A stretch of 64,000 bases of DNA from an uncultured Pseudomonadota bacterium. Lineage in GTDB: Bacteria > Myxococcota_A > UBA796 > GCA-2862545. The stretch spans positions 60,692-124,691 of the forward strand of contig CAIOSP010000009.1 in the NCBI GenBank assembly GCA_903861005.1. The letters are read 5' to 3'. The notes beneath the pieces were generated by a model that ran no database searches, was not told the DNA's origin, and saw only the letters and a list, made by a program, of their open reading frames with translations. The position numbers were made by a program, and so were the translations under genes. Below are positions 13,050 to 23,369 of the stretch, piece by piece; position 1 is the first letter of the stretch, and every line of letters starts with the position of its first letter.

Positions 13050-16000
13050 CTACTTCGGCAGGCGAGCGCGCAGCGTCGAACCGATGGCCGCCGGGTCGGC
13101 CAGCGGCGCGGCGCCCAGCACGGCGACGAGCTCGGGAGAAAGCGACTGGGCCTTGGAGAGAGCGTCGGCGGCGCCAACGGCGTCATCCACCATCAGGCGC
13201 GCCATGCACAGCGCGAGCTTGAGATCGACGTGCGTGTTCACGTCATCACCCACGAAGCCCAGACCGCGCGACGCGATCTCGGCAGCCTCTTCCCAGGCCT
13301 GGCGACGCAGCGCCAGCTCGGACAGGCGCAGGTAGGCGACAGGCTGAGCCGCGTCGAACGCCAAGCAGCGCTCGTAGTGCTGCGCGGCCTTGTCGGGGCG
13401 ACCCAGCTCGTCGTCGAGCACGCGGCCCTTGGTCATGTACGCGTCGATCACGTCCTTCTGGACGCTCGCGTTGTAGATGACCCCGTTGTACGCCGTGAGC
13501 AGGTTCTGCCAGTCGTGGCGATCCTCGTGGACGCCGGCCAGGCCCTTGAGCGCCGGCACGAAGTTCGGGAACGCCTCCAGCGCCTTGGTGAAGCGCTTGA
13601 GCGCCTTGTCCGGCTTGCCGTGGTGGCGATCGACGCGGCCGAGCATCGTGTAGATGTTCGCCACCTGCTCGGGGTCGCCCTGACCGCCGGTCAGGTTGAG
13701 CAGGCGCTGGTAAACGTCGCCAGCAACGGTCCAGTTCTCCACCGCCACGTACAGCGGGCCGACGGCCTCGAGCGTGGGGAGGTGCGACGGGTTGAGCTGC
13801 AGGGCGCGCTCGTAGCGGGCGACCGCCTCGGCGGCGCGGCCCTCGCCGCGGAGCATCTCGGCGAACCGGTAGAAGAACGCGGTCGCCTCCATGCGGACGT
13901 CGTCGTCGTCGTCGTCAGCCGCGGAGATCTGCAGCGGCTCAAGGCGCGCGTAGAGGTCCAGCGCCTCGGCGTGGCGGCCCGCGTCGTAAAGGTAGGTCGA
14001 CTCGAAGCGCAGCGCGTCCGGCTGCTCCGCGGACACGAGCAGCACGCGCTCGTAGGTGCGGTGTGCCGCCTCGCGATCGTGACGGGACTCCAGCTCCACC
14101 CGCGCCGCGGCGAGGAGCTTCGCCACCTTGGCGTCGACGTCGGAGGCGCACTCGGCCTGGACCGAGAGCGCGCGCACGACGCCCGCGTGGTCGCCGCTGT
14201 GCCGGTAGATCGCCTCGAGCTTCTGCGCGGCGCCCGCGTCGGGCACCTCCGCGCTGATGGCCTGCTCCAGGTAGTGAACCGCGTCGTCCGTGCGACCCGC
14301 CGCGTCGCAGCGAACGCCGATCACGGAGAGCAGCGCGCTGCGCTCGGCACCCGAGGAGGACTCCGCGAGCGCGGTGCCCGACTCGATGTAGAGGCCCAGA
14401 TCGTCGCCCTCGTCCGCGAGGGTGAACAGGCTGCGCAGCGATTCACGGTCACCCGGGACCTCGACGAGCACCTGACGCCAGGCGTCGATCGCGCGACCCG
14501 GATCGGCCAGCTTGTGCTGGGCGACGTCGGCGATCTGACGGAGCAGCACCACGCGACGCACCGCCGGCACCAGCACCACCTCGCGCTTGAGGACGGCGTG
14601 GAGCGTGTCGAAGTCGCCCGTGCGGTCGGCGAGATCGCGCAGGCCGGCCAGCGCCTCCAGGTCCTCCGGCGACACGTCGAGCGCGTCGAACAGGGCCTGA
14701 CGCGCTTCGGCGTCCTGACCGTTCGCCAGGCAGACCTCGGCGATGCGGCGGTGGTAGCGCGCGGCGTCCTTCGGCGTGGGGGCCGTGCGCGCCAAGTCGG
14801 TCAGGTACTGGATGGCCTGCGCCACCTCACCACGACGACCCGCGATGCGCGCGAGGCTCTCGAGCACGTCACGGTCACCTGGCGCGTCCTCATGCAGCTT
14901 CTGGTAGAGCTCCCAGGCCAGGTCGGCCTCGGCAAGCTTCTCAGCCAGCACCCAGCGGCGCTTGATCTCCAGGCGCGCGCGCTCGGACTCGGCGGTGGTC
15001 GTCGCCAGACGCGCGGTCCACGCGTCGAACACACCCTGCCAGTCGCCGGCCTCGACCAGCGCGCGCTCCAGACCGAACGCGTCGAGCAGCTGCCCAGACG
15101 CCGCGGCCTCACGCCACGCCTCGACAGGCGGAGAGCCGCCCGCGGCCTCCACGGCCTCGGCCACCGCGCGCGGCCCCTCCGCTCTCGCCAACTCGGTCGC
15201 CGACTCGACGTCCTTTGCGGCCGCGGCCGCGGCCTTGGCGCCGTCGAGCGCCGCGATGGAGCCAGGGCGACCGGCCAGCGCCAGACGCCAAGCCGACAGG
15301 GCGCCCACGGCGTCGCCTGCGGCATGACGCAGCGAGCCGAGCCACGACGCATGCAGCGCCTGCACCGAGCCCACCGACGTCCGCTCGACCACGAGTTCGT
15401 GCGAGCGAACCTGCACGTCCGCGTCGCCAGCCGCGCCCGCGATCTGGGCCAAGCGGGCGAGCGTCGCCACCGGCGCGTCCGCGCGATCCAGCGCGCCGCG
15501 CAGGCCCACCAGGGCCTCCGCCGCGCCCGACGACGACGCGAGCGTCAGGCGATCGATCTCTGAGGCCGGCAGCCCCGCCTCGACGGCAAAGCGCAGCGCG
15601 AGGTCCGTGCGACCGAGCGACTCGGCCTGACGCACGAGCGTGGGTGTGCCGACGCCCTGAGGCGCCGCCTCCAGCGCCGCGACCACGCGACCGGCGTCCG
15701 CCATGCCCGCGAGCACCACGAAGGCCTCCAGGCTGACCGCGTCCCCGAGGCCGTCTGCGGCGACGCGATCGCCCCAGGCCAGGGTGTCCACCGACGACGC
15801 GACCGCGAGGGCGCGCAGCGTGGAAAGGCCCTCGAAGGACTCTTCGGGGAGCGGCCCCCCCGCCAGCATGGCGAGCGTGGCATCGGCGAGGCGCGCCTCG
15901 ACGCTGCCCGGCGACTTGAGCGCCGCGCGGATCACGTCCGGGCGACGGGCGCCCGCGACCTGCGCCAGACGACGGGTCGCCTCGGCGTGGTCCGGCGTGA

Positions 16001-18269
16001 TCGCCAGCAGGCGATCGAGCGTGGCGATCGCGCTGTCGGCGCTGACGCCTTCGCGGAGGCGCGCGGCCTCCAGCAGCAACGACTCCGCCCGCTCGCCCTC
16101 AGACGTCGCGGCGCGGGACTCAAGGCGATCCGCCGCCTCAGACGCGCGACCGGCGCCGACCAGCGACGCGATCAGCCCTTCGAACGCGAGCAGGTCACCC
16201 GTGGGGACGGCCAGCGCCTTCTCGAACCAGCTGGCGGCCGTGGCGGGGTCGCCCTCGACCAGGTGCAGGGACGCCGCTTCGAACGCGCGCGCCGCCGCCA
16301 CGGTCGGGTCGGACTCAAGCGCCGCGAGCCGCTCGGCCGCGAAGACACGCTCCGCCACGCTGCCGGCCGCCGTCGCCGCGCGACGCAGGCCGCGCAGGCC
16401 CGCCAGGTCGCCGCGATCGGCCACCACGCGCCACGCCGCCACGGTCTCCGCATCGGCAGGGGCCGCCGCGTCGCGCGCGTCGGCCAACCCGACCAGGTCC
16501 ACCAGGCGAGGCACGTCCCAGGACTTCACGCGCTCCGTGTGGAACGCGATCAACGCCTCGTGGTCGCTGCCCGAGCGCAGCGCACGCTCGACCGCGTCCG
16601 TCGCCAGGCCAAAGCCCAAAGCGCTCGACTTGCGGTACGCCGCGAGGACCTGCTCCGAGGCGCCGCCCAGGCGCTCCAACGCGGCGCCGAGCCGGTAGAA
16701 CGCGGCCGCAGCCTCGATCCCCGTGCGCTCGCCCCAGATCTGCTCGATCGCCGCGACGAGATCGTCGGGCTGACCCGCGGTGAGCAGCCACGCCTCGCGC
16801 TCGATCGCCGCGAAGGTCGACACAGCCGACGCGGTCGCGAACGACGCCGCAGCGCCGTCATCACCGGCCGAGCGAAGGGCTCGCGCGGCGAGCCACAGCG
16901 CGGTCGGACCGCCACGGGCCAAGTAGCGCTCCGCGAGCGCCGCGTACTGGGCGCCCGCGCGCAGCGCGGCCTCCAGCGAGACATCGGCGTCGCCCTGCTC
17001 CGGATCCAGCGTGAGCGCGTCGGACCAGGCGGTGATCGCCTCGTCCATGCGCCCCAGGCGGGCCAGCGCGTTGCCGCGCTCAGTGTGCAGCGACGCGACC
17101 GCAGACGCGTCGTCGACCAGGGCACGGATCTCAAGCGCGCCGACAAGCGCTTCGTCGTCTCCGAGGCGGTGGAGCGCGTCGATCAGGCGATCCAAGCTGT
17201 CGAGATCCGAGGGATCCGCAGCGACCGCCTCATGCAGCGCGGCGCGCACGGTGGCGGGGTCGGTCGAAGCCGCCGCGGCGCGACGCCACGCATCAGCCGC
17301 CGCGGCGCCCGTCAGCGCGCCAGCGCGGGTGGCCCAGGCTTCGTAGCCATTGCTGGCGTCCGACAGATCGGTGGAGAGGACGAGGACCTCGTCGCCGGAG
17401 GCGCCCTCGGCCAGCGCCGCGGCGAGACGCTCGCGCGCGCCGGAGGCGTCGCCCAAAGCGCGCAGGCGCAGGTGCGCGGCCTGAACGAGCAGGTCCGCAC
17501 GCGCGGCGCCCTCTTCGTTCGCCGCGGCTTCGATGGCGGCCAGGGCCTCGCGCCAAGCGTCCAGGCCGACGGGGAGCAGGAACTCGGAGCGCGGGACGGC
17601 AGAGTCCCCATCGACGGAGTCGACGTGCTCAGGCGCGCCGGTCAGCTGGGGCGAGGCGCTCGCGGGGCGAGGACCGTCCAGCGTCTGGGGCAGGATGCTG
17701 TCGAGGTAGCCGCCGGCCGGACGGCCAGGCGCCACGTAGCGGGGCGGAGGCGGCGGGAGGCGCGGCGCGGGCGCGTTCGGGGCGGCAGCGACCGGCACCG
17801 CGACCACGGCCTCGGCTACGGCCTCGACGACCGGGGCGGCCTCGACCGCGGGCTCGGGCGCAGCTTCCGCCGCGGGCTCGGGCGCAGCTTCCACCGCGGG
17901 CTCGGGCGCAGCTTCCGCCGCAGGCTCGGGCGCAGCTTCTGCCGCAGGCTCGGGCGCAGCTTCCGCCGCAGGCTCGGGCGCAGCTTCGACCACGGGCTCG
18001 GGCGCGGGTTCCACCACAGGCTCGGGCGCGGCTTCCACTACGGGCTCAGGCGCGACCACGACCGGCGTCTCCACTACGGGCTCGGTCACCTGGGGGGCCG
18101 CGACGGGCTCCTCCTCGGCGATCAGGGCCGGCGGCGCAGGCTCCGACGACTCGTCGACGGAGTCGGCGTCGTCGTTGAAGAAGTCGTCGTCATCACCAAA
18201 GAAATTGGCGACCGCATCACGCTCGTTGGGCTTTCGCGGACCTGCCAAGGTTCCCTCCTGATCGGGCAT
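13050..18269 (-). CDS. Giant TPR-repeat protein with Pro/Ala/Glu-rich N-terminal stalk
   Basis: A 1,739-residue protein with no signal peptide. Residues 1-60 are acidic (FFGDDDDFFNDDADSVDESS). About residues 70-140 are an eight-residue repeat of type EPAAEAAP, followed by a proline-rich hinge (RLPPPPPRY). The rest is nearly all helical repeats. Clear TPRs include LARLGRMDEAITAWSDALTL, AVARYERALQLNPSHLPTLE and GKPDKALKRFTKALEAFPNF. It probably acts as a large cytoplasmic scaffold. I chose the second Met (MPDQEGTLAG) as start; a Met ten codons upstream is possible. It lies 129 bp downstream of mlaD on the same strand, so cotranscription with mlaEFD is plausible. No enzyme motif was seen. Confidence 0.88.
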   Translation of the reverse strand: MPDQEGTLAGPRKPNERDAVANFFGDDDDFFNDDADSVDESSEPAPPALIAEEEPVAAPQVTEPVVETPVVVAPEPVVEAAPEPVVEPAPEPVVEAAPEPAAEAAPEPAAEAAPEPAAEAAPEPAVEAAPEPAAEAAPEPAVEAAPVVEAVAEAVVAVPVAAAPNAPAPRLPPPPPRYVAPGRPAGGYLDSILPQTLDGPRPASASPQLTGAPEHVDSVDGDSAVPRSEFLLPVGLDAWREALAAIEAAANEEGAARADLLVQAAHLRLRALGDASGARERLAAALAEGASGDEVLVLSTDLSDASNGYEAWATRAGALTGAAAADAWRRAAAASTDPATVRAALHEAVAADPSDLDSLDRLIDALHRLGDDEALVGALEIRALVDDASAVASLHTERGNALARLGRMDEAITAWSDALTLDPEQGDADVSLEAALRAGAQYAALAERYLARGGPTALWLAARALRSAGDDGAAASFATASAVSTFAAIEREAWLLTAGQPDDLVAAIEQIWGERTGIEAAAAFYRLGAALERLGGASEQVLAAYRKSSALGFGLATDAVERALRSGSDHEALIAFHTERVKSWDVPRLVDLVGLADARDAAAPADAETVAAWRVVADRGDLAGLRGLRRAATAAGSVAERVFAAERLAALESDPTVAAARAFEAASLHLVEGDPATAASWFEKALAVPTGDLLAFEGLIASLVGAGRASEAADRLESRAATSEGERAESLLLEAARLREGVSADSAIATLDRLLAITPDHAEATRRLAQVAGARRPDVIRAALKSPGSVEARLADATLAMLAGGPLPEESFEGLSTLRALAVASSVDTLAWGDRVAADGLGDAVSLEAFVVLAGMADAGRVVAALEAAPQGVGTPTLVRQAESLGRTDLALRFAVEAGLPASEIDRLTLASSSGAAEALVGLRGALDRADAPVATLARLAQIAGAAGDADVQVRSHELVVERTSVGSVQALHASWLGSLRHAAGDAVGALSAWRLALAGRPGSIAALDGAKAAAAAAKDVESATELARAEGPRAVAEAVEAAGGSPPVEAWREAAASGQLLDAFGLERALVEAGDWQGVFDAWTARLATTTAESERARLEIKRRWVLAEKLAEADLAWELYQKLHEDAPGDRDVLESLARIAGRRGEVAQAIQYLTDLARTAPTPKDAARYHRRIAEVCLANGQDAEARQALFDALDVSPEDLEALAGLRDLADRTGDFDTLHAVLKREVVLVPAVRRVVLLRQIADVAQHKLADPGRAIDAWRQVLVEVPGDRESLRSLFTLADEGDDLGLYIESGTALAESSSGAERSALLSVIGVRCDAAGRTDDAVHYLEQAISAEVPDAGAAQKLEAIYRHSGDHAGVVRALSVQAECASDVDAKVAKLLAAARVELESRHDREAAHRTYERVLLVSAEQPDALRFESTYLYDAGRHAEALDLYARLEPLQISAADDDDDDVRMEATAFFYRFAEMLRGEGRAAEAVARYERALQLNPSHLPTLEAVGPLYVAVENWTVAGDVYQRLLNLTGGQGDPEQVANIYTMLGRVDRHHGKPDKALKRFTKALEAFPNFVPALKGLAGVHEDRHDWQNLLTAYNGVIYNASVQKDVIDAYMTKGRVLDDELGRPDKAAQHYERCLAFDAAQPVAYLRLSELALRRQAWEEAAEIASRGLGFVGDDVNTHVDLKLALCMARLMVDDAVGAADALSKAQSLSPELVAVLGAAPLADPAAIGSTLRARLPK
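17848..18060. repeat. Coding tandem repeat, 24-nt period
   Basis: About nine imperfect copies of a 24-nt unit inside the TPR gene. On the plus strand each copy begins near GCGGGCTCGGGCGCAGC. On the coding strand they encode EP(A/V)(A/V)EAAP. The period and third-base drift show selection on protein, not a CRISPR or satellite array. Copy number is likely to vary between strains. Confidence 0.85.
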
Positions 18270-18397
18270 CGTAGGACCCTGTGACCCTAGCCCCAACAAG
18301 GGGCTTCCACAACCGCCCGAAGATCGGATCCGGCGACAGATCGCGCCCCGTCGGGCATCGGCTGTGTGTCAGCGTCTCGTGTGAGCCCGCTCGACCG

Positions 18398-19852
18398 CTA
18401 GAAATTCAGCGGGAGGCTACCCAGAAGCCACTTGATGTCGTCGTCGGTGAAGCGAAAGCCAAGACCGACATAGCCCGTGAAGAAGCCGTACTTGGCGCCC
18501 AAGATGATCTGCTCGGCGCCCCCCTCGACGTACATGTTCTTCCAGGGCTCGCCGCGGACCCCAACACGCACATTCGGGATGCCCCGGGACTCGATCGCCG
18601 GGTAGCTGCCGAAGAAGAAGTCGAACACGTCGATGTTGGTCTGGAGGCGGTCCTTGAGCGCGTAGAACGTGGCGCCCACGCCGCCGCCGCCCTCCTTGAT
18701 GCCGAGGCGCACGCTGACCGGGCCCCAGCGCTTCTCCATCTGGAACGTGAAGCGGTACTTCTGGTCGCGGGTCCACTTGGACGTGACGAGGCCAGTGTTC
18801 TCGTGGAGGACCTCCTTCTGGCTGATCACGCCCTGCGGGTAGTCGTTGATCTCGAAGTCGTACCAGAAGTCCTCGTGCGTGCGCAGACGCAGGCCGATGT
18901 TGTTCGCGCCGGAGAACGCGAGCGGGTTCCCGTAGTAGAATATCTGCGTGTCCTTGGGCTCGGTACCAAAGTAGAAACGACCGGTGTAATACACCTCTGG
19001 CCGGATTCCGGTGAAGGACTTCACCGCGCGCTTCACGTCGTGGATCGTGTCGTTGAGCGCGTCGATCGTCTGATCGTCATTGACCAGCGCGCCGATGGTG
19101 CCCTCGCCGCGGTCGATCTTGCCGGTGATCGACGTCATGTCCGACGCCGCGGCGTTGAGCTGATCGGTGAGGTCCTGGAGCTTGTCGACCTCCTCGTTGA
19201 CGTTGCCGCCGATGGTGTCGACGTGCCCCTCAAGCGCCTCCGACAGGCGGCGGACGGACTGCACGATCGCGGTGATGTCAGCCTTGTTCCCCGCCGCGAT
19301 CTCGCGCAGCAGCTCGGTGAGCTGGTCGGCGTTGGCGAGCGTGGACTCGACGTGCTGACGGTTGGCGTCGTTCTCCGCCATCTTCTTGAGCACGCCGGTG
19401 ACCGCGGAGATGTCGTCGCTGATCTTCTCCAGGTTGCGCGTGATCTTGTCGATGTCTCCAGGGTTGCTGCGAGTCTTGATCCGGTCCATGTCTTTGAGCA
19501 TGGTGTCGGACGTGCCGGGGTAGACGCGGACGAACAGATCGCCAAGCAGACCCGACGCCTTGAGCTCCGCGTCGGAGTCACCGGGCAGCTGGTAGGCGGT
19601 GCGGATCTTGAGCGTCAGCTCAGCGTGATCCCCCTCGATGGAGATGGCGTCGACCGCCCCGATCTCGACGCCGGCCAAGCGAACTTGGCTGCCCTCCCAC
19701 AGGCCGTCGGAGCTCGCGACCTCCATGAGCAGCCGGTAGCTGGTCTCGTCCGGGCGCACGCCGTCGACCGACCACGCCCAGCCAAACACCACGAGCACGA
19801 TCGCCACGAGGACGAACAGGCCGACCTTGAATTCGGTGGTCCACTTGGACAT
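18398..19852 (-). CDS. mlaD: MlaD-like MCE protein with C-terminal beta-barrel-like region
   Basis: The MCE substrate-binding component of an Mla-type phospholipid transporter, 484 residues. Residues 10-28 are a single N-terminal membrane span (VGLFVLVAIVLVVFGWAW). The MCE/MlaD domain covers about 38-115 (GLWEGSQVRLAGVEIGAVDA, LLGDLFVRVYPG). Residues 120-275 form a long helical coiled-coil region (NLEKISDDISAVTGVLKKMA). Residues about 285-484 are rich in alternating beta strands with aromatic girdles (VYYTGRFYFGTEPKDTQIFY, YRFTFQMEKRWGPVSVRLGI) and the protein ends in LLGSLPLNF, with the terminal Phe typical of outer-membrane barrels. This would let one chain span the periplasm. It starts 2 nt after the mlaF stop. 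Confidence 0.88.
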   Translation of the reverse strand: MSKWTTEFKVGLFVLVAIVLVVFGWAWSVDGVRPDETSYRLLMEVASSDGLWEGSQVRLAGVEIGAVDAISIEGDHAELTLKIRTAYQLPGDSDAELKASGLLGDLFVRVYPGTSDTMLKDMDRIKTRSNPGDIDKITRNLEKISDDISAVTGVLKKMAENDANRQHVESTLANADQLTELLREIAAGNKADITAIVQSVRRLSEALEGHVDTIGGNVNEEVDKLQDLTDQLNAAASDMTSITGKIDRGEGTIGALVNDDQTIDALNDTIHDVKRAVKSFTGIRPEVYYTGRFYFGTEPKDTQIFYYGNPLAFSGANNIGLRLRTHEDFWYDFEINDYPQGVISQKEVLHENTGLVTSKWTRDQKYRFTFQMEKRWGPVSVRLGIKEGGGGVGATFYALKDRLQTNIDVFDFFFGSYPAIESRGIPNVRVGVRGEPWKNMYVEGGAEQIILGAKYGFFTGYVGLGFRFTDDDIKWLLGSLPLNF

Positions 19853-19854
19853 GG

Positions 19855-20649
19855 TCAGACCTTCATGGGGCCATCGAGAGAACCGGCGAGGAACTGTCGA
19901 ATGAGGGGGTCTTGGCTGTGCTGGAAGTAGTCCGGCGTGCCTTCATGCGCGACCACGCCCTCGTTGAGCATCACGATCTTGTGGGCGATCGAGAGCACGG
20001 CGCGCATGTCGTGGCTGATCACCACGCTGGTCAGGTTCGGGTGGTGCCCGTCCGTCTCAGCGATCAGCTCGTCCATGGCCGCCGTGAGGATGGGGTCCAG
20101 GCCCGTGGTGGGCTCATCGTAGAGGAGGAATTCCGGGTCTCCCACGAGCGCCCGCGCGAGGCCCACGCGCTTGCGCATGCCGCCGGAAAGGTCGCCCGGC
20201 ATCTTGTCCTCGACGTCGTGCAAGCCGACCGACGCCAGCAGCTCACGGACCTTGGCCCGCACCGCCGGCTCCTTGAGCTTGCTGTGCTCGCGGATCGGGA
20301 AGGCCACGTTCTCGAACACGTTCATCGAGTCGAACAGCGCCGCGTTCTGGAAGACCACCCCAAATCGCAGCCGGATCGTGCGCAAGGCACGGTCGTGCAT
20401 GGTCGTCAGCTCGTCGTCGCCCACCCAGATGTGGCCCTGGTCTGGACGCAACAGCCCCATCAGCAGCTTGATCGTCACCGACTTGCCGGTACCTGACCGG
20501 CCGATGATCACCGTGATCCGCCCGCGCGGGATGATCAGATCCAGCCCGTTGAGCACGCGGTGGCGGCCGAACGCCTTGTGCACGCCCTGGTACACGATCG
20601 CCGCGGGCTGCCCGGTGACGGGGTCGATCTCAGGGCGCTGGGGCGTCAT
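19855..20649 (-). CDS. mlaF: ABC transporter ATPase, MlaF type
   Basis: The 264-residue cytoplasmic ATPase that drives the MlaE permease. Motifs are Walker A IGRSGTGKSVTIKLLMGLLR, Q-loop FGVVFQNAALFDSMNVFENV, ABC signature LSGGMRKRVGLARALVGDPE, Walker B FLLYDEPTTGLDP, and the switch His in SVVISHDMRAVL. The FENVAFPIREHSKL stretch is typical of MlaF-like ATPases. The start is the ATG that overlaps the mlaE stop by 4 nt (ATGA); a start 12 nt further upstream is less likely. It is the second gene of mlaE-mlaF-mlaD. The direction of lipid transport cannot be told from sequence. Confidence 0.95.
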   Translation of the reverse strand: MTPQRPEIDPVTGQPAAIVYQGVHKAFGRHRVLNGLDLIIPRGRITVIIGRSGTGKSVTIKLLMGLLRPDQGHIWVGDDELTTMHDRALRTIRLRFGVVFQNAALFDSMNVFENVAFPIREHSKLKEPAVRAKVRELLASVGLHDVEDKMPGDLSGGMRKRVGLARALVGDPEFLLYDEPTTGLDPILTAAMDELIAETDGHHPNLTSVVISHDMRAVLSIAHKIVMLNEGVVAHEGTPDYFQHSQDPLIRQFLAGSLDGPMKV

Positions 20650-21452
20650 GGCAGCGCCCACGCGATGAAGAAGTTGCTGACCAGGATCAGCACCGACGCC
20701 ACCACCACCGACGACGTCGTCGCGTTGCCGACACCCTTGGCGCCGCCCGTCGTGTAGTAGCCCTTGTAGCAGGCGACCACGCCGATGATCGCGCCGAACA
20801 CCAGCGCCTTGAACAGGCCGGTCCAGATGTCGTCCCAGTCCACCCAGTCCTTGAGCCGAACCATGAACTCCGGGTAGCTCAGGTGCATGACGTAGACGCC
20901 GACGATGTAGCTGCCCAGGATGCCCACAAAGTCGAACACGGCGGTCAGCATGGGCAGCGAGATGAGCGCCGCCAGCAGCCGCGGCTTGACCAGGTAGTTC
21001 ACCGGATCCACCGCCATCGCGTCCAGCGCGTCGATCTGCTCGGTCACGCGCATGGTCCCGATCTCCGCGGCGATCGCCGAGCCCGCGCGGCCCGCGACCA
21101 GCAGCCCCGTCAACGTCGGCCCCAGCTCGCGGGTCAGCGCCACGCCGACGGTGCCACCGACCATGCCCTGCGCGCCGAACATCTTGAACGCGCGGTAGGA
21201 CTGCAGCGCGAACACGGCGCCAGTGAACGCCGCCGTCAGGAAGATGATGGGCAGCGACTGCACGCCGATGAAGTCGATCTGCTGCAGCGTCAGCCGAAGA
21301 CGCAGCGGCCGAAAGAAGAAGTTCGCGAAGCCGAGCGCGCCGATCCGCGCGGCACGGCCCACCTCCTCCACGCTGCCGCGCACCCCGCGCACGGCGCCCA
21401 CGATGGGGCGCCCGAGGGCCTCGATCACGGCGATGATGGGCGACCCAGTCAC
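20646..21452 (-). CDS. mlaE: ABC transporter permease, MlaE type
   Basis: A 268-residue inner-membrane permease of the MlaE/DUF140 family. It shows about five to six hydrophobic segments and the family signature ELGPTLTGLLVAGRAGSAIA followed by AEIGTMRVTEQIDALDAMAV. The N-terminus has an amphipathic elbow-like stretch before GVQSLPIIFLTAAFTGAVFA. It begins with GTG; no strong ribosome site is visible. It is the first gene of the operon, divergent from the FG-GAP lipoprotein gene across a 231-bp gap. MlaC and MlaB homologues are absent here, which fits a system whose MlaD reaches the outer membrane by itself. Confidence 0.95.
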   Translation of the reverse strand: MTGSPIIAVIEALGRPIVGAVRGVRGSVEEVGRAARIGALGFANFFFRPLRLRLTLQQIDFIGVQSLPIIFLTAAFTGAVFALQSYRAFKMFGAQGMVGGTVGVALTRELGPTLTGLLVAGRAGSAIAAEIGTMRVTEQIDALDAMAVDPVNYLVKPRLLAALISLPMLTAVFDFVGILGSYIVGVYVMHLSYPEFMVRLKDWVDWDDIWTGLFKALVFGAIIGVVACYKGYYTTGGAKGVGNATTSSVVVASVLILVSNFFIAWALP

Positions 21453-21683
21453 GTGGAGAGTTCAGCGCTCGTGGCAGAGTGAGAGGGCCGGCGCGACGTC
21501 GTGAAGACGCTCGTTCGCACCACCAGCCCGGCCCCGGGCCGGTCCACGCCGCCCCTAACGCGCCCGACGTTCCCGGAGCGCCCCGCCCCGAACTTTGCGC
21601 CGGCCGCGCCCACGGCCCACGCGGACGGTGCGGATCAGCCGCGAGACAGGCTAATCAGGGCTTGTCCCCCACCCCGGATTCCC

Positions 21684-23369
21684 GTGCATCGGCTCCCCCT
21701 CCTGCTGCTCGCCTCGCTTGGCGCCTGTGACGCGGTCGATGCCCCTGGGGACACCGACTCGAACAGCGACGCCGCGGTCGCAGACTCAGACACAGACGAC
21801 ACGGACAGCGCGACCGCCGACTCCGACTCCCCGGACACCGACGGCGGCGTAGGCGCCCGCTGGATCGCCGGGCCCCCGGTCCTCTGCGCGGACCCGTCCC
21901 AACGCATCAACCGCCCCTATTCCCTGCTCGACGGCGGGACCGAGTGGGCCGCCCAGCCGTTCAACGACGCGTCCGACAGCGTGTTCGTCGGCGGCGGCGT
22001 GGCGGTCGCGGACTTCACCGGCGACGGCCTGCTCGACGTCATGACCACCGCCGAGGACGATCGGTTCGGCTACTGGATCCAGGGGCCGGGCCTGACGTTC
22101 ACCCGCGGTTTGCTGCCGGTCACGCTGGAGCGCACTGCCGGCGTCACCGCGGTCGACGTGAACGCCGACGGCGACCTGGACGCGTTCGTCGGCGTGTTCA
22201 AGGGCCCAGACTTCCTGCTGATCAACGACGGCCACGGCGCCTTCACCGACGGCACCGCCGCCGCCGGGGTGGCTGGGCCCGACAACCGCCGCAGCATGTC
22301 ATCGAGCTGGGCGGACGTCGACCACGACGGCGACGTGGACGGCTTCGTCGCCGGGTACGGCCGCATCAACTCGCCCGATGGCATCCCGCCGGGCGACGGC
22401 TCGTCCATCTTCCTCAACCAGGGAAACGGCACCTTCGTCGATCAGGTGCCCGGCATGCCCGCGCCCAGCGCGCTGCACGAGGCCCACACCTTCTCAGGCG
22501 CGTTCATCGACGCCGACCGGGACGGCTGGCTCGACCTGTACCTGCTCAACGACTTCGGCTGGACCTGGCCCGCCACGCTCCTGCACAACGATCACGGCGT
22601 GTTCACGCCCACGGCGGACCTGGGCCTCGACTTCACCCGCGAGAACATGGGGCTCGGCATCGGCGACGTAAACGGCGACCTGATCCCCGACTTCCTCGTG
22701 GCGTCGTGGGAGGACAACGCCCTGTTCGTCAGCCGCGGCGCCGCCTGGTTCGACGAGAGCCGGTCCCGTGGCCTGCGGATGGACGCCTCGCGCGGCCAGG
22801 TGACCGGCTGGGGCGCCGACCTGTCCGACCTGGACAACGACGGCGACCTCGACGCCACCATCCTGTGCGGCTTCATCGCCGTCACCAGCAGCCACGAGAA
22901 CCCCGAGTCCCAGCCCGACGGCGTGTGGACCCAGCAGCCCGACGGCCGCTTCGTCGACGTGGGCCAGGCGTGGGGCCTCGACGACGAAGGCCGCCAGCGC
23001 GGCGAGGTGGTGGTCGACCTGGACCGCAACGGCTTCCTGGACGTGGTGCGCGCCGACCTGCGCGGCCCCACCGAGATCTTCATGGGCGCCTGCGACGACA
23101 GCGCCTGGCTGGAGCTCACGCTGCGCGAGCAAGGCCCCAACCCCTTCGCGCTCGGCGCCGAGGTGATCGTCCACGACGGCGATCAGGCCTGGATCCGCGA
23201 CGTGCACGCCGGCGGCACCAGCTACGGCTCAGCGGGCCCGCCCGAGGTCCACTTCGGCCTGGGCGACCGGGACGCCGTCGACTCTGTCGAGGTCCGCTGG
23301 CCCGACGGCGTCGTCGAGACTTGGACCGACGTCCCCACCCGCCGCCGCGTCACCGTGGAGCGTCGATGA
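21684..23369 (+). CDS. FG-GAP/VCBS-repeat lipoprotein with UnbV-like C-terminus
   Basis: A 561-residue predicted lipoprotein. I chose a GTG that opens the signal peptide VHRLPLLLLASLGAC (lipobox LGAC, Cys15); the frame is open further upstream without a signal. An Asp/Thr/Ser-rich linker follows (about 20-55). The body holds about six FG-GAP/VCBS units with calcium-loop motifs such as DFTGDGLLDV, DVNADGDLDAFVG, DVDHDGDVDGF, DADRDGWLDLY and DLDNDGDLDA. These usually fold into a beta-propeller. The C-terminus matches the ASPIC/UnbV pattern (GAEVIVHDGDQAWIRDVHAG, YGSAGPPEVHFGLGD, VEVRWPDGVVETW). It is probably on the cell surface; ligand unknown. The stop overlaps the next start (ATGA). Confidence 0.85.
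   Translation: MHRLPLLLLASLGACDAVDAPGDTDSNSDAAVADSDTDDTDSATADSDSPDTDGGVGARWIAGPPVLCADPSQRINRPYSLLDGGTEWAAQPFNDASDSVFVGGGVAVADFTGDGLLDVMTTAEDDRFGYWIQGPGLTFTRGLLPVTLERTAGVTAVDVNADGDLDAFVGVFKGPDFLLINDGHGAFTDGTAAAGVAGPDNRRSMSSSWADVDHDGDVDGFVAGYGRINSPDGIPPGDGSSIFLNQGNGTFVDQVPGMPAPSALHEAHTFSGAFIDADRDGWLDLYLLNDFGWTWPATLLHNDHGVFTPTADLGLDFTRENMGLGIGDVNGDLIPDFLVASWEDNALFVSRGAAWFDESRSRGLRMDASRGQVTGWGADLSDLDNDGDLDATILCGFIAVTSSHENPESQPDGVWTQQPDGRFVDVGQAWGLDDEGRQRGEVVVDLDRNGFLDVVRADLRGPTEIFMGACDDSAWLELTLREQGPNPFALGAEVIVHDGDQAWIRDVHAGGTSYGSAGPPEVHFGLGDRDAVDSVEVRWPDGVVETWTDVPTRRRVTVERR

Follow-up and report, generated by a model that had tools for sequence, protein, structure and literature searches.

A MlaD protein with a predicted C-terminal outer-membrane barrel in an mlaEFD operon, and its relation to MlaA across the phylum

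Known MCE Systems

A one-protein bridge, in which MlaD itself carries a barrel, has already been described for Veillonella parvula (Grasekamp et al., 2023, PMC10665443). This protein has the same architecture as the one described here, its barrel has ten strands, and localisation data are available for it. In that study barrel-type MlaD was reported for Terrabacteria, a clade of Proteobacteria and closely related phyla; the main text never names the myxobacteria. The authors judged a ten-stranded barrel too narrow for the passage of a phospholipid, and most long MlaD proteins were found to be barrel-less (PMC10665443).

Here, a window of 64,000 nucleotides, meaning the whole stretch of DNA that was analyzed, from an uncultured bacterium was found to encode a similar system. 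As in V. parvula, an EFD set is present without mlaA and mlaC, and its MlaD displays a transmembrane segment, a single MCE domain, a helical region of about 150 residues and a C-terminal ten-stranded barrel, which is predicted here, the likeness being one of architecture. The two systems differ in the length of MlaD (484 aa compared to 419 aa in V. parvula) and in the downstream genes, which is a gene for a 1749-aa TPR protein here, whereas tolC and tamB are found there.

With the E. coli-type MlaABCDEF system the locus shares MlaE, MlaF and the MCE domain of MlaD. In contrast, no MlaA, MlaB or MlaC is present with the operon, and MlaD comprises 484 instead of 183 aa. This length, together with the lack of mlaA and mlaC, rules out a short MlaD of the E. 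coli type, which is accompanied by MlaC and MlaA. The classical E. coli-type operon is present in relatives of the same phylum. The mycobacterial Mce1 heterohexamer (8fed) resembles the protein in its MCE ring and long helices, and the profile could be aligned over residues 6–268. However, one MCE gene is present here and six are present there, and a full barrel per chain is predicted here compared to one strand per chain in Mce1; a heterohexamer of the Mce1/Mce4 type is ruled out by the single MCE gene of the operon. PqiB and LetB (YebT) are likewise MCE proteins that span the periplasm. These are ruled out as well, since each of their chains has multiple MCE domains and lacks a barrel at the C-terminus, whereas a single MCE domain is present here.

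The mlaEFD Operon and its Genome

The operon consists of three genes:

20646..21452, minus strand: mlaE, permease, 268 aa, first gene of the operon (PF02405, E=9.7e-85; TIGR00056 above cut-off)
19855..20661, minus strand: mlaF, ATPase, 268 aa (PF00005, E=5.7e-33; best NCBIfam match MlaF, PRK11831, below cut-off)
18398..19852, minus strand: mlaD with C-terminal strand domain, 484 aa, ATG at 19852, stop at 18398

The order mlaE-mlaF-mlaD is contiguous. The start of mlaF and the end of mlaE share 16 bases, and mlaD, the third gene and the only MCE gene of the operon, starts 2 bases past mlaF. An earlier sequence-only reading had pointed out the open reading frame at 18398–19852 without stating its strand; the frame is real and lies on the minus strand. 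The plus strand is also open over this interval, which was rejected as a shadow frame of mlaD.

Downstream of mlaD, the adjacent gene on the minus strand (13050–18299) encodes the 1749-aa TPR protein, which displays an N-terminal run of repeats of the type EPVVEAAPEPAAEA. A TPR homolog likewise follows mlaD in a genome of the same family (G049, L039). The divergent neighbor on the other side (21501–23369, plus strand) encodes a 622-aa FG-GAP / ASPIC-UnbV protein with a stretch rich in Ser, Asp and Thr near its N-terminus.

The sequence-only reading had noted that neither mlaC nor mlaA is found in the operon. This was borne out, and the search of the whole genome revealed neither gene. Furthermore, both are missing from all 56 listed genomes of the same class, which indicates that their absence from the source genome is not an assembly gap. 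Genes for BamA-like and TamA-like proteins and for TamB are present, the latter on another contig. No match to the Pfam LptD model was found in the genome, which says little since this model also misses several control diderms.

Three MCE loci are present in the source genome. Besides the operon, these encode two long MCE proteins without a barrel:

L002:1387-2346: barrel-less MCE protein, 319 aa, and L003:859-2636: barrel-less MCE protein, 328 aa; one lies beside mlaE, the other with mlaF and mlaE

With these two proteins present, the cell's main phospholipid importer is not necessarily the mlaEFD operon.

The N-Terminal Half of MlaD

19769..19831, minus strand: N-terminal transmembrane segment, residues 8–28, hydropathy maximum 2.5
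19514..19741, minus strand: MCE domain, residues 38–113 (Pfam MlaD PF02470, E=1.2e-14; aligned to the solved MlaD structures 7ch8, 6zy2 and 6xbd)
19010..19471, minus strand: helical arm, residues 128–281, about 154 residues, periodicity of 100–105 degrees
19076..19114, minus strand: near-invariant break in the helical arm, residues 247–259 (DRGEGTIGALVND); G249, G251, G254, L256 and D259 invariant or at least 90% conserved

The N-terminal span, the MCE domain and the helical stretch of about 150 residues, which had been proposed from the sequence alone, are confirmed by hydropathy (peak at residues 5–30), by a single PF02470 stretch and by the helical periodicity. The NCBIfam model TIGR00996 covers residues 14–262 (E=1.5e-26, below the curated cut-off). 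The arm contains a single proline and would be about 23 nm long if it forms one continuous helix. The profile alignment of MlaD to the M. smegmatis Mce1 structure 8fed_B and to 13hr_I runs through to residues 268–270. The motif GEGTxGxLxND that breaks the arm (residues 247–259) resembles a stretch of the barrel-less paralog at L003 (GEGTVGKLLTDD).

The C-Terminal Strand Domain

18449..19006, minus strand: predicted ten-stranded outer-membrane beta-barrel, residues 283–468 (strand pattern, topology, conservation, covariation)
18449..18472, minus strand: last strand, beta-signal-like, residues 461–468 (YVGLGFRF), fits the published motif
18410..18445, minus strand: conserved acidic-amphipathic C-terminal tail beyond the barrel, residues 470–481; D470 and D472 invariant

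Residues 283–468 alternate between hydrophobic and polar, and the approximately 200 residues of alternating strands suggested earlier are thereby narrowed to about 185. Twelve strongly alternating 9-mers are present, compared to 7.3 +/- 1.9 in shuffled sequences, and 21 of 2000 shuffles score as high. It is the conservation of the domain, not this alternation, that is the real evidence against a chance pattern. Homologs of residues 280–484 were detected in 175 of the 284 genomes of the phylum using the single sequence and in 177 using a profile. Within a diverse set of 43 relatives, 21–60% identical to the 484-aa MlaD, the residues R382, G384, G393, D408, G445, F468, D470 and D472 are invariant. 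The closely related L034 is 99% identical over the C-terminal part (residues 271–484). In the fetched neighborhoods of the homologs, mlaF and/or mlaE are usually found directly upstream wherever this region is visible.

No family of Pfam or PHROGs covers the barrel region, and solved structures match the MCE and helical parts with none in the barrel. No relatives were found in viral contigs, and plasmids gave matches to the MCE and helical parts only. In two genomes the match is unusual: in G171:C117 it is split into two pieces, possibly by a frameshift or an assembly error, and in L200 (G271) it lies inside an unusually long open frame of 811 aa.

The terminal Phe to which the sequence-only reading had drawn attention is not conserved, as the C-terminal residue varies (P, L, K, F, R). 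The conserved aromatic residue is F468, which closes the last strand and is followed by a conserved tail, D-x-D-[LI]-[KR]-x-[LI]-[LF].

Within residues 283–468 ten strands can be drawn. The connectors comprise 22, 28, 3, 15 and 13 residues after the odd strands and 4, 3, 1 and 4 residues after the even ones, and with the exception of the 3-residue connector, those after odd strands are the most variable in length among 129 homologs. This asymmetry of loops and turns, together with the even strand number and the position of both ends on the side of the short turns, is expected of an outer-membrane barrel. The predicted barrel would have a hydrophobic outer face and conserved charged or glycine positions inside (R382, G384, G393, D408); averaged over each face, conservation is not higher inside than outside (p=0.66).

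The last strand resembles a beta-signal as defined previously (PMC10945584). The core of this motif, GxxPhi-x-aromatic, is present within the last 40 aa in 143 of 149 homologs compared to 14% of shuffled sequences. In its strict form, with a polar first position, it is found in the 484-aa MlaD, but in only 27 of the 149 homologs.

Covariation was analyzed by pseudolikelihood DCA using 149 sequences (about 108 effective); mean-field DCA was noisier. The top coupling connects residues 284 and 469, hence strands 1 and 10, and the second connects 409 and 428 of strands 7 and 8. The next-ranked couplings of neighbors include 373–380, 330–373, 380–397 and 446–462, interspersed with non-neighbor pairs such as 324–373 and 375–401. 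Antiparallel ladder scores are higher for the ten neighbor pairs of a closed barrel than for the other 35 pairs (p=6e-5), and the parallel control shows no such excess (p=0.07); counted by individual top pairs, the enrichment of neighbors is marginal (p 0.03–0.19). Covariation supports a closed ten-stranded barrel, short of proof. AlphaFold2, run on the single sequence of residues 271–484, reached a pLDDT of 37, too low for a confident model. Taken together, the C-terminal domain is probably a ten-stranded outer-membrane barrel: the Veillonella-type reading proposed earlier is well supported at the sequence level by ten predicted strands, loop asymmetry, a beta-signal-like strand, covariation and the lack of mlaA and mlaC in the genome, and the closure of the barrel is deduced from the sequences.

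Distribution of Barrel MlaD, MlaA and MlaC

Within the sample of 284 genomes of the phylum, 177 contain a barrel MlaD according to the profile and 107 do not. MlaA is present in 58 genomes and MlaC-family genes are present in 217. None of the 177 barrel genomes contains MlaA, compared to 58 of the 107 barrel-less ones, and no taxonomic family in the tables has both. Genomes with MlaA harbor a short MlaD within an operon of the order F-E-D-A-C. In the tree, the five tested MlaE sequences from classical operons form one separate clade, and the p-value of the exclusion (2.5e-30) is therefore inflated by shared ancestry; the swap between MlaA and the barrel may have occurred in one or a few events.

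For MlaC the picture is different. A lack of MlaC fails as a phylum-wide rule: MlaC-family genes are present in 135 of the 177 genomes with a barrel and in 82 of the 107 barrel-less ones, independent of the barrel, and only MlaA is strictly excluded. Wherever compared in barrel genomes, the MlaC gene lies outside the mla operon, either on another contig or far from the barrel gene (single-contig genomes such as G008, G151 and G178). The MlaC-family genes examined score higher for HpnM than for MlaC, both below the cut-off. In several barrel genomes, such an HpnM-like gene adjoins a gene for a TolC-family outer-membrane efflux protein (L079:2876-5305, L086:1561-3674, L087:4555-6857), and these two genes possibly represent a separate lipid or efflux module.

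That MlaA is never found with a barrel MlaD points to the barrel as its substitute. A narrower version, which we put forward tentatively and regard as somewhat doubtful, is that the barrel replaces MlaA specifically and not MlaC. Here, phospholipid would be picked up at the outer membrane by the barrel itself. In lineages that retain an MlaC-family protein elsewhere in the genome, shuttle and bridge would be separate routes.

Proposed Mechanism and Alternatives

The 484-aa protein is probably a Veillonella-type MlaD that spans the envelope, with the barrel in the role of MlaA and the arm in that of MlaC. By analogy to the family and to Veillonella, six copies of MlaD would be anchored by their N-terminal helices on a MlaE2F2 ABC core within the inner membrane. 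Their MCE domains would form a ring, and the helical arms of about 150 residues would continue this ring as a tunnel across the periplasm. The small ten-stranded barrel of each chain would be placed into the outer membrane by BAM, again as supposed for Veillonella and the family. Transport of lipid between the two membranes would then be driven by ATP hydrolysis at MlaF; its cargo would most likely be phospholipid retrieved from the outer membrane, direction and substrate being assumed. Within this scheme, the barrel end would dock the tunnel at the outer membrane, corresponding to the role of MlaA, and the arm would correspond to the MlaC shuttle.

A strong competitor, to which we assign somewhat less than an even chance, is that the barrel is an anchor only. 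In this case, it would tether the end of the MCE tunnel to the outer membrane at its inner face. Lipid would come in laterally from the inner leaflet, and the outer leaflet would be cleared by an outer-membrane phospholipase or by another protein that is not MlaA. This would fit to the narrow width of a ten-stranded barrel and to the fact that most long MlaD proteins manage without one (PMC10665443), as do two proteins of the source genome. Nevertheless, the strict exclusion of MlaA (0 of 177) suggests that the barrel takes over the role of MlaA and does more than hold the tip.

It is unlikely that another lipid is carried or that movement is directed outward, for example of hydrophobic natural products or of phospholipid in the anterograde direction. 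The three MCE loci of the genome leave room for such a function, and the sequence does not reveal the substrate, but the homologous MlaEFD of Veillonella behaves as a retrograde phospholipid transporter according to suppressor and vesicle lipid data. It is very unlikely that the C-terminal domain forms a soluble beta-sandwich or lid in the periplasm: the pLDDT of 37, the equal average conservation of the hydrophobic and polar faces, and amphipathic strands taken alone would fit this as well, but the long and variable loops on one side with short and fixed ones on the other, the even strand number, the beta-signal-like last strand and the coupling of strands 1 and 10 argue against it, and the same architecture fractionates with the outer membrane in Veillonella (PMC10665443).

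Significance

The design of a barrel MlaD is known since 2023, and the present result is therefore supporting and refining evidence and not a discovery. The extension of its range to a genome taken to be myxobacteria-like, which the sequence-only reading had suggested, adds little, since a clade of Proteobacteria and related phyla are already covered (PMC10665443). The refinement is that the barrel excludes MlaA, and not MlaC, in this phylum.

For most diderms it is still an open question how phospholipids cross the periplasm without MlaA and MlaC. In this phylum, the bridge is present in 177 of 284 sampled genomes and the classical outer-membrane partner in 58, never both together, which allows comparisons between relatives. 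In addition, the 149 aligned barrels are diverse enough for structure prediction of the part that is understood least. If the barrel indeed replaces MlaA specifically and not MlaC, the phylum would amount to a natural experiment on the replacement of one outer-membrane gate by another.
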